From: Struthio camelus
Taxonomy: Eukaryota; Chordata; Aves; Struthioniformes; Struthionidae
Assembly (NCBI RefSeq): GCF_040807025.1
Contig: NC_090964.1
Span: forward strand, 5,890,001 to 5,954,000
Direction: 5' to 3'
DNA length: 64,000 bases
Shown: positions 19,345-62,947 of the stretch, one piece after another
Layout of the letters: each line of letters begins with the position of its first letter
How positions within the stretch are numbered: the first letter of the stretch is position 1
Translations under genes and position numbers: made by a program
Notes under the pieces: generated by a model
Told to the model about the DNA's origin: nothing
Databases searched by the model: none
The model's input: the letters and a program-made list of their open reading frames with translations, nothing else

Positions 19345-20339
19345 GCACACACACACACACACACACACCCCGACACTGACCCCCGGCACATGGCACACAC
19401 ACACCGCAACCCCAACCCCACGCACACAGCACGGCACCACGCACACACACACACCCCGCAACCCCAGCCCCTGGCACACAGCACGGCACCACGCACACAC
19501 ACACACCCCGCAACCCCAGCCCCTGGCACACAGCACGGCACCACGCACACACACACACACCGCAACCCCAACCCCTGGCACACAGCACGGCACCACGCAC
19601 ACACACACACCCCGCAACCCCAGCCCCTGGCACACAGCACGGCACCACGCACACACACACACACCGCAACCCCAACCCCTGGCACACAGCACGGCACCAC
19701 GCACACACACACACCCCGCAACCCCAGCCCCTGGCACACAGCACGGCACCACGCACACACACACACCCCGCAACCCCAGCCCCTGGCACACAGCACGGCA
19801 CCACGCACACACACACACACCGCAACCCCAACCCCACGCACACAGCACGGCACCACGCACACACACACACACCGCAACCCCAACCCCACGCACACAGCAC
19901 GGCACCACGCACACACACACACACCGCAACCCCAACCCCACGGACACAGCACGGCACCACGCACACACACACACCCCGCAACCCCAGCCCCACGCACACA
20001 GCACGGCACCACGCACACACACACACACCGCAACCCCAACCCCACGCACACAGCACGGCACCACGCACACACACACACACCGCAACCCCAACCCCACGCA
20101 CACAGCACGGCACCACGCACACACACACACACACCGCAACCCCAACCCCACGCACACAGCACGGCACCACGCACACACACACACCCCGCAACCCCAGCCC
20201 CTGGCACACAGCATAGGACCGGGCACACACACACACACGCACACACGCACACTCCAACCCCTGGCACACAGCACAGCACCACGCACACACACACACACAC
20301 ATACACACCCCAACCACAGGCACACAGCATAGGACCGGG

Positions 20340-20373
<34 letters not shown>

Positions 20374-47529: not shown

Positions 47530-47658
47530 CTGTGCAGCTTCATAGGTGATGGTCTTAGTTTCCGTGTGGACAATGGGAACTTCTTTTGTTGGAATTTCAC
47601 TTTTCACAGCATTGGATACGTCCGAGATGGTGACTGTCTGCGTCTTCACTAGAGGTGG
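47530..47658 (-). CDS. EPB41: Protein 4.1R exon (43 residues)
   Basis: Exactly 129 bases, phase 0, between the acceptor GTTTCATAG and the donor GCACAG, GTAAGG. It encodes PPLVKTQTVTISDVSNAVKS, then EIPTKEVPIVHTETKTITYE, then AAQ. This is the spacer just before the C-terminal domain, nearly identical to human 4.1R. In the core transcript it joins directly to the 60-residue exon at 62,768-62,947. The 15-kb interval between the two contains all the candidate alternative exons described here. Confidence 0.97.
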
Positions 47659-48752: not shown

Positions 48753-49211
48753 CTGGAAGCAGCGAAAGACTGCTGGAAGCCCATTATTAACCTTCAAGCC
48801 GCGACACACTCCATTTAGCTTTCTAAACGCTTCTCGCGCCAATCTGTCGTCGCCAGCCTCTGCCACCTCCTCTCTTCCCCAGGGCTGCGGCGGAGGCGCA
48901 GCGGGGATTACCGGGCGCTCCGGCTCAGATCGCTCTGAGTCGGCCGCCTGCTTTTCCGCAGCTGCAAAACCCCCCTTGTCCCATCTCAGGTCCTCCGCGC
49001 TCTCGGGGAGGCTGGAAGCAGCCGCCTCCTCCTCGCTGCTTACGGAGGACGCGCCAAAGTCCCGACTTGGAGCAGGCTCTGAGGCAGGTGACATTTGGGT
49101 CTCACTAAAAGCTACTGACTGCTTTGGGCCCTCCCATTGAAAGGCAGGGTTAACACTTTTCCTCTCTGGCACTGCAGCCACATCCTCTTTGGAGAGAAAG
49201 TCACTCTTACT
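48753..49211 (-). CDS. EPB41: Candidate 153-residue cassette exon of EPB41
   Basis: Between an acceptor (TTCGTTTCTTTTTAG, then AGTAAGAGT) and a donor (CGCTGCTTCCAG, then GTAGTGAGC) lie 459 bases, exactly 153 codons, open in phase 0, the same phase as the exons on both sides. The product starts SKSDFLSKEDVAAVPERKSV and is acidic and serine/alanine-rich (SEEEAAASSLPESAEDLRWD), ending LPAVFRCFQ. It would insert a disordered acidic region between the spectrin-actin-binding part and the C-terminal domain. Paralogues of 4.1R carry long insertions at this position, and mammalian EPB41 has been described with alternative exons numbered 17a/17b here. Whether this is their orthologue I cannot tell. The reading frame runs on past the donor into the intron, so intron retention would give a different tail. 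Confidence 0.75.
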
Positions 49212-54572: not shown

Positions 54573-57500
54573 AATGATAAATGTACATATTTACAAAGAA
54601 AAATCTGAGAAAAATTACAAAACCAAAAAAGTGTTCCAAAAGAGAGCATTTTAGGTAAAAAAAAAAAAAAAAAAATTTTTTTTAGTCCAATGAGACCGTG
54701 TACCACTGCTAGAAGACCACAAACACAAAGTGGCACAAACCCAGGCCACCAAGAAAGCCATTACCCAAAGCCTGCTAGTCCTTCCCTCCAGCTTTATAAA
54801 CCAAGGAAAACGCCAAGAGAGGCACTAGAGAAAACGCTGTAGTCCGGTTCTCCCATGCCACCGGCACTATGAAGCACAGACCCAAGAGTTCCTGACCGAA
54901 TCAGTAACCAACCTTTGAGTTTTTTCGGCAAAGTATCCTGCCTCAGTCTATGTATCAGACCAGGCATGATCCGCTCGTGACCCGCAAGCCTCCAAAGGCA
55001 GGAAAAAAAACCCGACAAACCAATGGGATAATTCTCAGAGTGACAAATTACTAACCTCGGTGTAACGCCAAAGATGCTTTTGCTGTAGCGGTCCTGAGGA
55101 GCCCTGAGGCCACACCAACCCCGCTTGCGGGCACCAGCCCGACTCCTGCGGCGCCACGCCGAGGAGAGCCACCTCTCCTCTTTATTGCAGGATAGAAGGA
55201 CAAATACACAATACCTGCTGCTTCGGGTCATCGCTAACCACTGCACAAACTGCAAGGCAGAGTAAGGAGGCTGAAGGAAAACTGCTCTTAGGCTTAGCTC
55301 TTCCTATGTCCTAACTTAACACTCCCATAGAGAGTCCTCGGTTTGCCTTAACTCACTGGGCAAGGAAAGAGCGACGTGAGGTGCAGGCTATTCCAGCTGT
55401 CTACCCTGATTTACTCGTTCACTTTACTAGAAACAAGAAAATAATGTTTTTGTTTATGCTAACACATCTCTCTTGAGTATCACCAACTACCATCATGGCC
55501 AAAATCCAACACCTAACGCAGCCTCAGAGTTTAGTCCGAGTTTCCAGTAATCAGGCAGGCTCAGCCACGCTTGCCACTTCCAAATACTAACGCCCGCCTT
55601 TTCTTGAAGCATGAAAGCCCAAAACACTATTCTGCGTTTTATGTGGAATTCAGGAAAGCGGACTGCAGGAGGACAAGATTCAGAGCAGAAAGCACAGAGC
55701 CAGCCACCAGCTTCCCGATGCACAGAGCTGGGGGCCTGAGTCTTGAAGAGGCCGCTTTTTCCAACCGCCAACCGAGTCCACCCGCGAGCACCAAAAAGAG
55801 CCTCGCTGCAGCAGAGATTAGATTGCAAAACACTGCAAAAGTCTAAGTAACATCAAAACTGTTGGCAGTCTTCAAGCAGCTAAATCACTGGCATGTCAGA
55901 GTCACTGAAGTACCATTTTCTGCAGCGCTGGAGAATCAGGATTTCTCACGGAAACCCGGCTGAGGTTATACGCTGCAGACATTTCCAGCTTCCCTTTGGA
56001 AGTGATAATTCAGTTCTCCCGCACTCACTGTCAGTGCAACAGGCTGGAATTACCCTGACCACATATACAAAAGCTGCTTTATTCCTTCCCCAGCCAGGAG
56101 CTAGTGGTGATGCTAAGGCAGTCGCCTAGGTGGTTTGTCTGCACTTTGCAGCTCTGTTTGCTCCTGAGTCAAAAAAGGGAGCAAAGTATACTCGTCAGGT
56201 CCTTTATGAAAACCCTGAGACCTCTGCCTTTAAACTAAGCTACAGCATATTAACTCTAACTTCACACACGTACAACGCTAGTAGTCCTGGAACTTACTTT
56301 CCCTTCTGTATCTTGAGTCAACATCAAGCGGAAGCAGTGAAATCGGGAATCAACTGGCCCAGCAAAAACAGATATGAGACACACAATGCCTTGAAAAGAG
56401 GCCCTATCCCAACCACCACGGGGCAAGAAAAAAGAGGGAAGAGAGATGGGCAAAGAGGCTGGAGCACAGCACAGCGATCACATCGCCGCAGACTCCCCCA
56501 AGGGGCATCGCAGCTTTGACCAGATGAGGTTTCCCTTCCCGATAAGCTATAACTTTTCTCTGTCCGGATCAGAAAAGATCCCATCCACCGGAACGAACAT
56601 AGATAAACTCATCTCTAAACTGCCGTAGAAATATAAAGTGTTTGTTCAGTTTCTTTATACACTCTTCAGTGCGAATTGGTATATAAATCCCAAAAATGTT
56701 CCTGAGCATTCTCAGAATGTAAAGTTCAAAAGTTTTTTTTGCTGATGATAACCAGCCTTATTTCAGGATTTAAATTAAAAAAAAAAAAAAAAGGAGAGAG
56801 AGACCGTTTTAATTAGTTTTAAGAAGTTGAAAGGGTTGAACTGAACTGACCAGCAGAGTGCATCTCTCATCACTCTGGGATGAGACATCCTGAGCACTAC
56901 ATTCAAAAATTGCTCTGGGCAAAGATTTTAAACTTCAGGTCCTTTGGATATGGAAGATAGAGCTACAGAAACCATGGCTTTGCAAAAGATACTCGTATGG
57001 CTTCAAAATATTTGTCATCCGTTCGGAGAGTTATCACGCAATAACCTACACTGCGTTGGCTGCAGCGATGCTCCAAAAGCAGCATCGCGACGGCTAACCA
57101 GAGCAATGGCTTTTAAAAGGAAGCAGGAGTTGCACGTTTAAGGAAAAGCAGATCTCCAAGAAACAGGGACAGGAAACGGATGGACAGAGAGACCAAACGG
57201 TCCCCGTTTTCATCACGTCTGCTCCAATTTTGCACAGCTTAAAGCAGCGGTCCGAGCCCAGAAGCGTCTCCACGCTTCTCGCGCTCTGCAGCACCCAGCG
57301 TCGCCACGTCCTTCCCCAGCTCTCCCACCTCCGCTCTCCGCGGCCTGCTTTCTCAAGACAAAAATCTTCCTAAACTTCAGGCTGAGCCCACCGGAGCTCT
57401 TCATCGGTTCGCGTCCCCAGCCCCCGGCGGCGGCTCGCGCCGCTGGCGTCTCTCCCTGAGCCTGGGGGAGCCCGTAGCTGGACGGCGCTGAAGTCTACCA

Positions 57501-59293
57501 GCCGACCGACTTTGGCTATCTCGACAGCTGAAAGAGGAAGACTGTGCATTAAAGGCAGTGTATTAAAAAGGGAAGAATACTTTTCCATGGAAATCGGCAT
57601 TCACACAAACCAAAGTCCTAAAGGCACAAACTGGTGAACTAATTGGAGCGAGTGGGCAAATCGGAAAGGTTCCCGTGAGATTAAAACAAAGCGTTTCACT
57701 AACGACCTCAATTTCTGAGACGGCGTTGAGGGCGCCTCATCCTAGACACCCAGAGTAAGAGATACAGCCCAAGTATTTCACGATTTACTGCTATCCTTCC
57801 GGTCGGACGGCACATGCCAAGTTGTGCACACATCGTTATTTGTCTTTCGTCTTTTCCTGTAGACATATTTTTCTAGCTTCCTAAAGTAACGCTGTTCACA
57901 CAGATACAGATCTATAAACGAATATCAACATATATATTTATATATATTCACACATTTTAGTCCCTGTAATAAAGGGCTGCTCCTTTCTCTTCGTCGCTGT
58001 TGGAGCAGCTGCCAATACCGACGGCACCAGCGGCTGCTCTTGGACGCAATTGTTTCTATACCAATTCTCTAGAGAAAGCAACAGAATGCATACTACTACT
58101 GAAAGAGAAGCGGTTGGCTTAGCTCAGTCCCATAGTTACTATATACAGAAAAGAAACCCCTTAGACACAAAGTCCCATCTTCCCTCCGGCTCCCAAACCA
58201 GCTCCGCTCAGCCCGGCTGAGCGACCCCTCTCGCTTCCCAGCTTGGTCACCTCAACTACCACGTGGACGCGGATAGCCAAAAGCATCATCCAGACATTTA
58301 CATTTGTGCGTAATAAACAACAAGCAGCATGCAACGGTTTCGTCGGAGAAGTCAAAACAACAGATGGCTTTAACGTTAGAACTGTGTCCTGAGCGCGCTC
58401 TTCTTTTTCACACGTTTGGGTAAACTCAACAGTAGTAAAGTCAACGTGCGGACGAAGGAGACATACTTAACAGCAGGTTAGTCCTTTTCTGTGACCTACG
58501 CAAACGTGCTTCAGTGCGTTCCACACAAACACATCGGCAGTGCACCAAGACGTCGAGATTCAGGAAAAAAAAAGGATTCGGTTACGTTACAATAAATATT
58601 TGCTTGTAATGGATTTTCTCCTATAACACGGTGTATTTTCATCGAAACAAGAACAGGGGTGCGAGAGGGAAGCTGTGATGCTTTGCAAAAGGCCTCCCGC
58701 TGGGAAAAGGAAAAGCTGCCTGTCCCTAGCCGTACGTTAACACTAACAGCAGCATTGATGATCAACACTTTTTCTTTAAATGCCAATTTTTGTTTCCTAG
58801 AAAAGGAGTGGTTATGGATTAGATTCGGCGGATTGCCGTGAAGCCTCATCAGGCTTTTGGATCATTATCAGATATTCCTCTGCTTGTGAATAGCTTACAT
58901 TTAAAATAATAAGCTTAGTAAGTCTTCAGCAACTGCTATGTGAAGTCTAAGGGAGCTACAGAAGCAAACATCTCCCATATATGCACATCTCAATCTGCCC
59001 TCTTACAGCTGAAGCCTTTGCAATCAGCAACATGCTTTATACAATTCATTTTTGCTTACAGAGCACTAGGAAACTTCGAAACAGATCTGGCAATCCATTA
59101 CCACTCCCTGCCAGGCCCCAGATTGCAGCTACACAATGAAAAACAGCGGGATCCACACTCTAGTCGACGGGTGTCCCTCCCCGGGACAACAGGCTATGGA
59201 GATCAGAGCCCAGGACAAGGAGGATGCAGCAGAGGCTACGGCCAAGATTTCAGGAGCTTTGGTCTTGAGGTTTCAATAGGACCCTGTTCCCAC

Positions 59294-59548
59294 TCAGAGA
59301 AAGAGCAGCCACCAGACAGTCAGTGCTATGACCACAAGAATAGACATCATAAAGGGAATACGCGAAGAAGGAAAAATACTAGAGTACAGCTGACACTTTT
59401 TGAGCGATTTCTGCTCTTCAGGAATTGGAATAGAAACCTTTGGAAGAGTTTCTTCATTTGCTGGCCGGGGAAAGGCTGTCTCAGTAGGTACCTCCTGCTT
59501 TTTTAGTTTGTCTTCATCCTGTACTAACAGAGGACGTTCCTGTGTCTG
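59294..59548 (-). CDS. EPB41: Candidate alternative terminal exon encoding a tail-anchored 4.1R
   Basis: After the pyrimidine-rich TCTCTGTCTTTCTTGATCTT and the tandem acceptor AAGCAG (a NAGNAG site, exon start 59,548 or 59,545), phase 0 gives an open frame of 83-84 residues ending in TGA at 59,294-59,296. It begins TQERPLLVQDEDKLKKQEVP, continues through a charged, proline-containing linker (PKVSIPIPEEQKSLKK), then CQLYSSIFPSSR. It ends in an uncharged 21-residue segment, IPFMMSILVVIAL followed by TVWWLLFL, right at the C-terminus. That is the layout of a tail-anchored membrane protein: basic residues before the segment, nothing after it. The exon lies in the same orientation and phase as the EPB41 exons on either side, so using it would replace the C-terminal domain by a membrane anchor. 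I know of no described 4.1R isoform of this kind. A separate nested gene is the alternative. No credible internal donor was found. Confidence 0.65.
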   Translation of the reverse strand, partial: QTQERPLLVQDEDKLKKQEVPTETAFPRPANEETLPKVSIPIPEEQKSLKKCQLYSSIFPSSRIPFMMSILVVIALTVWWLLFL

Positions 59549-60321: not shown

Positions 60322-60450
60322 CTATGAAAGAAAAAACTTGGCTCTAAGCTCTCTCAGTTGAGCTAGCCTCCTCTGATCAGTGCGGTATTTTGGGACTGGT
60401 TCTTTGCACACCCCTAAGTGATGAGTATCAGGGAGAAAGTAGCTGGGAGA
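60322..60450 (-). CDS. EPB41: Candidate alternative terminal exon (42 residues)
   Basis: An excellent acceptor (TTATATTTTCTTTTGCTGCC, then CAG) is followed in phase 0 by 42 codons and a TAG at 60,322-60,324. The product reads SPSYFLPDTHHLGVCKEPVP, then KYRTDQRRLAQLRELRAKFF, LS. The last half has heptad-like leucines and basic residues suggesting an amphipathic helix. It would truncate 4.1R before the C-terminal domain. The evidence is splice consensus, phase and composition only, and chance cannot be excluded for so short a frame. Confidence 0.3.
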   Translation of the reverse strand, partial: SPSYFLPDTHHLGVCKEPVPKYRTDQRRLAQLRELRAKFFLS

Positions 60451-60822: not shown

Positions 60823-60873
60823 CTCAAGCCCACCAACCTGTCTCTCAGAAGATAGGACAGTGACTTTCTTGAC
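60823..60873 (-). CDS. EPB41: Candidate 17-residue microexon of EPB41
   Basis: Between an acceptor (CCCGCTTTGTGTGTCCAG) and a donor (CTTGAG, then GTAAAGCTG) lie exactly 51 bases, phase 0, encoding VKKVTVLSSERQVGGLE. It can be inserted without shifting frame after the 60-residue exon and before either the tail-anchor exon or the core downstream exons. Protein 4.1 genes are known for many small in-frame cassette exons, which fits. I do not recognise this peptide from mammalian 4.1R. Confidence 0.5.
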
Positions 60874-62767: not shown

Positions 62768-62947
62768 TCCATCCGCTCCCGTGGGAATCTGCCCGTTGAC
62801 GTTAAGGGTGCGGAAGGGGGAATGGGCGGACAGGCGTTTGTCCCATTCGCTCGGCCGAGGCTCGGGGACGGACTCCATAAAGTTCTTCTTCAGCTCGCTG
62901 ATGTTGGCATGATGCTTCTTTATTTCTTCTTGGGTCTTATCTAGATC
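62768..62947 (-). CDS. EPB41: Protein 4.1R exon (60 residues) before the C-terminal region
   Basis: Exactly 180 bases, phase 0, after the acceptor TCTAATGCCAG and before the donor GGATGGA, GTGAGTACC. It encodes DLDKTQEEIKKHHANISELK, then KNFMESVPEPRPSEWDKRLS, then AHSPFRTLNVNGQIPTGADG. It follows the spectrin-actin-binding domain in 4.1R and matches human 4.1R closely (exon 17 in the usual human numbering, as I recall). The ending GADG replaces GEG of human. This is the most 5' EPB41 exon in the window. The N-terminal headpiece, FERM domain and the exons of the spectrin-actin-binding domain lie beyond 64,000. Confidence 0.97.

Follow-up and report, generated by a model that had tools for sequence, protein, structure and literature searches.

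A conserved alternative exon of EPB41 that predicts a tail-anchored form of protein 4.1R

We consider it very probable that a conserved exon within an intron of EPB41 is real and under selection, and that its terminal version encodes a predicted tail-anchored protein 4.1R, with the FERM and spectrin-actin-binding (SAB) regions in the cytosol. 4.1R is a textbook peripheral membrane protein, brought to membranes through partners bound by its FERM domain. The exon lies on the minus strand at 59294..59548 of the window, the whole 64-kb stretch of Struthio camelus DNA analyzed here, and comprises a linker, a juxtamembrane part, a hydrophobic tail, and a TGA stop. Its 84-codon open frame runs from 59548 to the TGA at 59294, and directly 5' of it are a pyrimidine tract and then a tandem NAGNAG acceptor, AAGCAG. 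Residues 64-84 at the extreme C-terminus (IPFMMSILVVIALTVWWLLFL; 59297..59359, minus strand) form the predicted transmembrane anchor, a segment of 21 residues without charge and with the stop directly after it. The intron that holds the exon spans 15.1 kb on the EPB41 strand, from exon 17 (62947-62768) to exon 18 (from 47658). The initial annotation had described a phase-0 frame behind an acceptor, placed in EPB41 orientation between two EPB41 exons and ending in a hydrophobic segment and a stop. Each of these elements was found where it had been placed, and the flanking exons proved to be the SAB exon 17 and exon 18.

Exon 17 (62768..62947, minus strand) is the constitutive SAB exon. It is phase 0 at both ends and has the donor GGA/GTGAGT, where the slash marks the exon end. 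Its frame matches the Pfam SAB domain with E=1.4e-23, and 55 of 58 residues are identical to the human segment. This exon lies nearby upstream of the tail exon and shares its strand and phase. Downstream, exon 18 (PPLVKTQ...; 47530..47658, minus strand) was located by tblastn, its low end being the end of the match rather than a splice site; it is the first exon of the C-terminal domain (CTD) that the tail isoform lacks. Further CTD matches, with approximate edges, were found on the minus strand by tblastn and Pfam 4_1_CTD at 45772-45611, 44723-44619, and 43201-43103. On the minus strand, the pieces of duck isoform P0010 (828 aa) match collinearly between 90748 and 59297, leaving only residues 643-646 uncovered; position 90748 is 26.7 kb past the window edge, with the numbering continued in window coordinates. 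These pieces place the FERM and headpiece exons upstream of the tail exon on the same strand. The tail isoform is thus a CTD-less product of EPB41, not canonical 4.1R; the gene itself contains the CTD exons.

Between exon 17 and the tail exon lies a small alternative exon, VKKVTVLSSERQ(VGGLE), at 60823..60873 on the minus strand. It has donors after 60838 and after 60823, so its length is 36 or 51 nt (60873-60838/60823), and all 17 of its residues are identical in duck isoforms. Its VKK motif follows exon 17 in 110 of the 111 tail isoforms among the matches listed, and exon 17 is joined straight to TQER of the tail exon in the remaining one (1/111). The direct junction from exon 17 that had been proposed is therefore annotated in a single listed isoform, and the usual route is via the 36- or 51-nt VKK exon. 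To the two starts proposed earlier, 59548 (CAG) and 59545 (ACA), which the tandem acceptor provides, sequence and annotated isoforms add a third at 59518 (GATGAA). The 59545-type start, without Q, accounts for at least 73 of the 111 listed rows, and the 59518-type start (DEDK/DEEK) for 19 of the 111 isoforms. The 59548-type start (Q) is found in at most 19 of 111, a Q at the end of the preceding exon being indistinguishable from it. Also between the VKK and tail exons, at 60322-60450 on the minus strand, is a second phase-0 open frame with a stop, SPSYFLPDTHHLGVCKEPVPKYRTDQRRLAQLRELRAKFFLS, preceded on its 5' side by a long pyrimidine tract. This frame could be another terminal exon or could have arisen by chance.

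The tail exon also contains an inner 5' splice site, AAG/GT (59436..59440, minus strand), at which the exon part would end at 59438. Its sequence, AAG/GTTTCT, makes it a weak donor because it lacks G at +5. Isoforms that leave the exon here are nevertheless annotated. In turtle the junction reads LPK/PPLVKTQ and leads to exon 18 (P0117-P0119), and in a bird it reads LPK/KMSDLL and leads to a 459-nt exon (P0094, P0095). These annotated exits suggest a switch: with the donor used, the product would have the linker and the CTD; with the donor skipped, it would have the linker, the hydrophobic tail, and the stop. The 459-nt alternative exon, which comes after the inner donor in the CTD isoforms of birds, was located at 48753..49211 (minus strand) with a segment from Cinclus (tblastn, E=3e-36), and its splice sites are visible. 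By its size, it is presumably exon 17B of the mammalian literature; older work reportedly gave exons the names 17A and 17B. The 459-nt exon is only 52% identical to its Cinclus counterpart, whereas the tail exon shows 80-93% within birds, and by this sequence comparison it is apparently evolving unusually fast. A bear isoform (P0116, Ursus americanus isoform X7) leaves the tail exon at another point, downstream of KKCRLYS in the juxtamembrane part, and returns to the CTD via a short segment absent from the other CTD-bearing rows compared.

A chance open frame was considered as an explanation. Stop-to-stop frames of at least 45 aa were collected from both strands of 144 kb (the 64-kb window and a further 80 kb upstream of it), and their last 19-residue window was required to have a Kyte-Doolittle mean of at least 2.0 and none of DEKRHNQP. 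Only 1 of 1,894 frames has such an end, and it is the tail exon. Dinucleotide shuffles of the intron gave no frame of at least 60 aa with a mean of at least 2.3 in 300 trials, and the real intron passes once, with an in-phase acceptor. The thresholds of both tests were chosen after the finding was known. Census and shuffles together rule out a chance frame. A retrocopy or repeat as the source of the tail is likewise ruled out, as far as the search reaches, by its single genomic place: no second copy was found in the 1.45-Gb genome (262 contigs), in which the next match has E=2.6.

Annotated relatives of the tail are numerous. A search with the tail exon alone returned 93 proteins, with lengths that fitted whole 4.1 proteins. 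The turtle tail region as query returned 334, of which the best 120 were used. A third search, limited to the final 49 residues of the turtle sequence, retained 102 of 104 candidates and missed nine known tails. All 102 matches of this tail-only search are named protein 4.1, EPB41, or erythrocyte membrane protein band 4.1. At least 111 annotated protein 4.1 isoforms end in the tail, from at least 86 named species; a tally made by hand from the names gives at least 46 birds, 10 turtles, 5 squamates, and 25 mammals. The closest relatives among them are birds, with up to 93% tail identity. Among the matches listed, the squamates comprise a rattlesnake plus four species of lizard or worm lizard, and the mammals include an ape, monkeys, lemurs, rodents, bats, carnivores, hoofed animals, and a porpoise, so the tail is not an oddity of birds. 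Human is absent by name among the matches listed, and crocodilians, marsupials, and monotremes are absent among the best 120 of 334. Amphibians and fish do not appear in the 102 tail-only matches, which come from a 5-residue-word search that recovered 102 of 111 known tails. Because the isoforms were found by similarity to the tail, lineages without it would be missed.

The initial annotation had predicted a 4.1R with FERM and SAB regions and without the CTD, and such a protein is what the annotated isoforms of these 86 or more species contain. In the tail rows listed, the Pfam FERM and SAB domains are present and 4_1_CTD is absent. The SAB string occurs in 110 of the 111 listed tail isoforms, two exact FERM strings occur together in 101, and CTD motifs occur in none. 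Most of these proteins are predictions already in public annotation under isoform numbers such as X26, and they may in part be propagated by homology. Loss of the open frame in close relatives, which was to count against the exon, was not seen, though a similarity search is blind to losses.

Conservation across amniotes was examined in an alignment of the 111 tail proteins and the window exon, with 11 CTD-bearing rows left out (P0094, P0095, P0116-P0124). The stop falls at the same residue in all 111 listed tails, the hydrophobic part is kept in each, and no indel occurs after residue 36. Mean identities were calculated between six birds and nine mammals, five squamates, or three turtles, in rows picked by hand from the 111. 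Between birds and mammals, identity within the tail exon is 0.53 in the linker (residues 11-37), 0.78 in the juxtamembrane part (38-62), and 0.78 in the hydrophobic part (63-84). Outside the tail exon, the values are 0.92 for the FERM core, 0.91 for exon 17, 0.62 each for the headpiece and the small VKK exon, and 0.56 for the U2 linker. The corresponding tail exon values for birds and squamates are 0.48, 0.73, and 0.81, and those for birds and turtles are 0.67, 0.85, and 0.71; with turtles, the hydrophobic part hardly exceeds the linker (0.71 vs 0.67). In the comparisons with mammals and squamates, the better-kept portion is the one that is read only if splicing passes over the inner donor.

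The substitutions themselves also bear on selection. None of the 26 distinct substitutions in residues 64-84 goes to D, E, K, R, H, N, Q, or P, as compared to an expectation of 28.7% for these residues or a stop (P ~1.5e-4, assuming independent changes). The null consists of single-base nonsynonymous changes of the window codons and takes no account of phylogeny or mutation bias. Applied to residues 38-62, the test gives 10 of 39 (expected 43.7%, P 0.016), and applied to residues 11-36 it gives 30 of 75 (expected 50%, P 0.05), leaving the hydrophobic part as the only one of the three with zero such substitutions. Since the null is undershot in the other two parts as well, part of the effect may reflect a null that is too high.

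The hydrophobic segment has the hydropathy expected of a membrane anchor, as had been proposed for a C-terminal stretch of 21 uncharged residues. The last 19 residues have a Kyte-Doolittle mean of 2.55, and the range over 112 tails (the 111 listed plus the window) is 2.31-2.72. In the full-length duck isoform the tail window reaches 2.48 and the next best 19-residue window only 1.14, so that, judged by hydropathy only, the protein has no other membrane-grade segment and no signal peptide. SEC61B, VAMP2, emerin, and the KASH forms of nesprins are tail-anchored proteins. Like them, the tail isoform has a single hydrophobic segment at its C-terminus, occupying residues 64-84 of the 84 encoded by the exon, inside the ~30 C-terminal residues where such anchors lie. 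It is unlike them in that a peripheral skeleton protein would acquire its anchor through alternative exon use and no residue lies past the segment. The best 19-residue means are 2.41 for SEC61B, 2.61 for emerin, 3.36 for VAMP2, 1.71 for CYB5A, 1.37 for FDFT1, and 2.07 for FIS1. Hydropathy alone does not separate ER from mitochondrial anchors; by general targeting rules, the ER or nuclear envelope would be favored over mitochondria, since all basic residues lie on the cytosolic side and the segment is not followed by any.

A signal for ending the transcript after the tail stop is less apparent. A hexamer scan to 55000 found no canonical poly(A) signal within 2.4 kb past the stop, the closest ATTAAA being at 56813 and the closest AATAAA at 56083. 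A weak candidate, the variant signal TATAAA, lies at 59036..59041 (minus strand), ~250 bases past the stop.

The lack of a nearby canonical poly(A) signal is what would be expected if the exon served only as a cassette, with the inner-donor CTD isoforms being the ones that matter and the hydrophobic read-through a by-product of intron retention or premature polyadenylation. The annotation of such CTD isoforms in a bird and a turtle also agrees with this explanation. A by-product, however, should not be better kept than the cassette itself, and the part after the donor is better kept between birds and mammals (0.78 vs 0.53) and between birds and squamates (0.73-0.81 vs 0.48), turtles being less clear. 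The retention of the stop in all 111 listed rows and the weakness of the inner donor argue against it further, and we regard it as unlikely. The exon could instead act as a poison exon, whose inclusion puts a stop before further exons so that the transcript is lost to nonsense-mediated decay. The tail stop does lie upstream of the CTD exons, but decay would not need a conserved protein sequence over 47 codons past the inner donor, and this possibility appears highly improbable.

A degron is a further alternative, in which the exposed tail would be caught by BAG6-type quality control and the exon would lower 4.1R output. Aberrant products with an exposed hydrophobic C-terminus are established quality-control substrates; a keyword search of open-licence papers on this point returned no match. 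For a degron, hydrophobicity would suffice, yet the juxtamembrane part is equally well kept, the length of the segment is constant in all listed tails, and no row of the 112 (the 111 listed plus the window) departs from C52, L54, Y55, P65, F66, W79, W80, F83, or L84. These features make a degron quite unlikely.

Our analysis allows a mechanism to be proposed for the tail-anchored form. When the weak inner donor is used, the exon would be an ordinary cassette leading to the CTD. When the donor is skipped, the exon would be terminal, the transcript would end 3' of the tail stop, and the CTD would be swapped for the conserved 21-residue hydrophobic tail. The tail would then be inserted into the ER after translation by a tail-anchor route, GET or EMC, with FERM and SAB staying in the cytosol. 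The resulting integral 4.1R could link spectrin-actin with the ER, the outer nuclear envelope, or membranes accessible from these, and it would lose the CTD functions of binding FKBP13 and NuMA. A 2024 review describes the 22/24-kDa CTD of 4.1R as binding both proteins (PMC10887211). The 135- and 80-kDa isoforms share their gene, strand, and FERM and SAB exons with the tail isoform; according to the same review they end in this soluble CTD (PMC10887211), whereas the tail isoform ends in a predicted membrane segment.

According to one study, mass spectrometry detects 4.1R at the nuclear envelope, and 4.1R co-precipitates with emerin and lamin A (PMC10830384). We give roughly even chances to a broader proposal, namely that amniotes possess an overlooked integral 4.1R, in which a composite exon toggles between the NuMA- and FKBP13-binding CTD and an anchor, tying spectrin-actin to the ER or nuclear envelope and explaining part of the 4.1R found there. 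If this proposal is true, the spectrin-actin junction gains a membrane hold independent of partners, and placement of 4.1R at the nuclear envelope becomes testable with an isoform-specific antibody or by deleting the second half of the exon. Antibodies or assays directed at the CTD would have overlooked the tail isoform.

A keyword search of open-licence papers found no report of a transmembrane 4.1R among the matches listed. The accessible portions of the 2024 review (PMC10887211), of a second article (PMC3166722), and of a paper on camelid 4.1R (PMC9926112) deal with how the headpiece, exon 14, and exon 16 are spliced and with the C-terminal domain, and those portions mention no membrane segment in 4.1R. 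The earlier statement that no such form is known thus agrees with the papers found; in the databases, the numbered predicted isoforms are already present.

Transmembrane FERM proteins do exist outside this family, FRMD5 being one. FRMD3 is described as a single-pass transmembrane FERM protein (PMC11687992). Its combination of a FERM domain and one membrane segment resembles the tail isoform, a likeness by description only. We take FRMD3 to be a distant paralogue without SAB, whose membrane segment is fixed and involves no splice choice. No FRMD name appears among the 102 tail-only matches.

The other 4.1 genes were examined in the same genome. The CTD-exon places on C2, C3, and C18 are taken as EPB41L3, EPB41L2, and EPB41L1; their SAB-like matches have identities of 60%, 74%, and a weak 29%, respectively, and at the C18 place the first CTD exon was also missed by tblastn. 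Scans of the sense strand over the 30 kb that precede the CTD at each of the three places found no hydrophobic terminal frame of at least 45 aa, and no paralogue is among the 102 tail-only matches. A related tail was thus not found in the paralogues, and, as far as one genome shows, the anchor device would be confined to EPB41 among the four 4.1 genes. Elsewhere in the window, at 19394-20354, is a CA-rich minisatellite with a period of 52 and ~18 copies.
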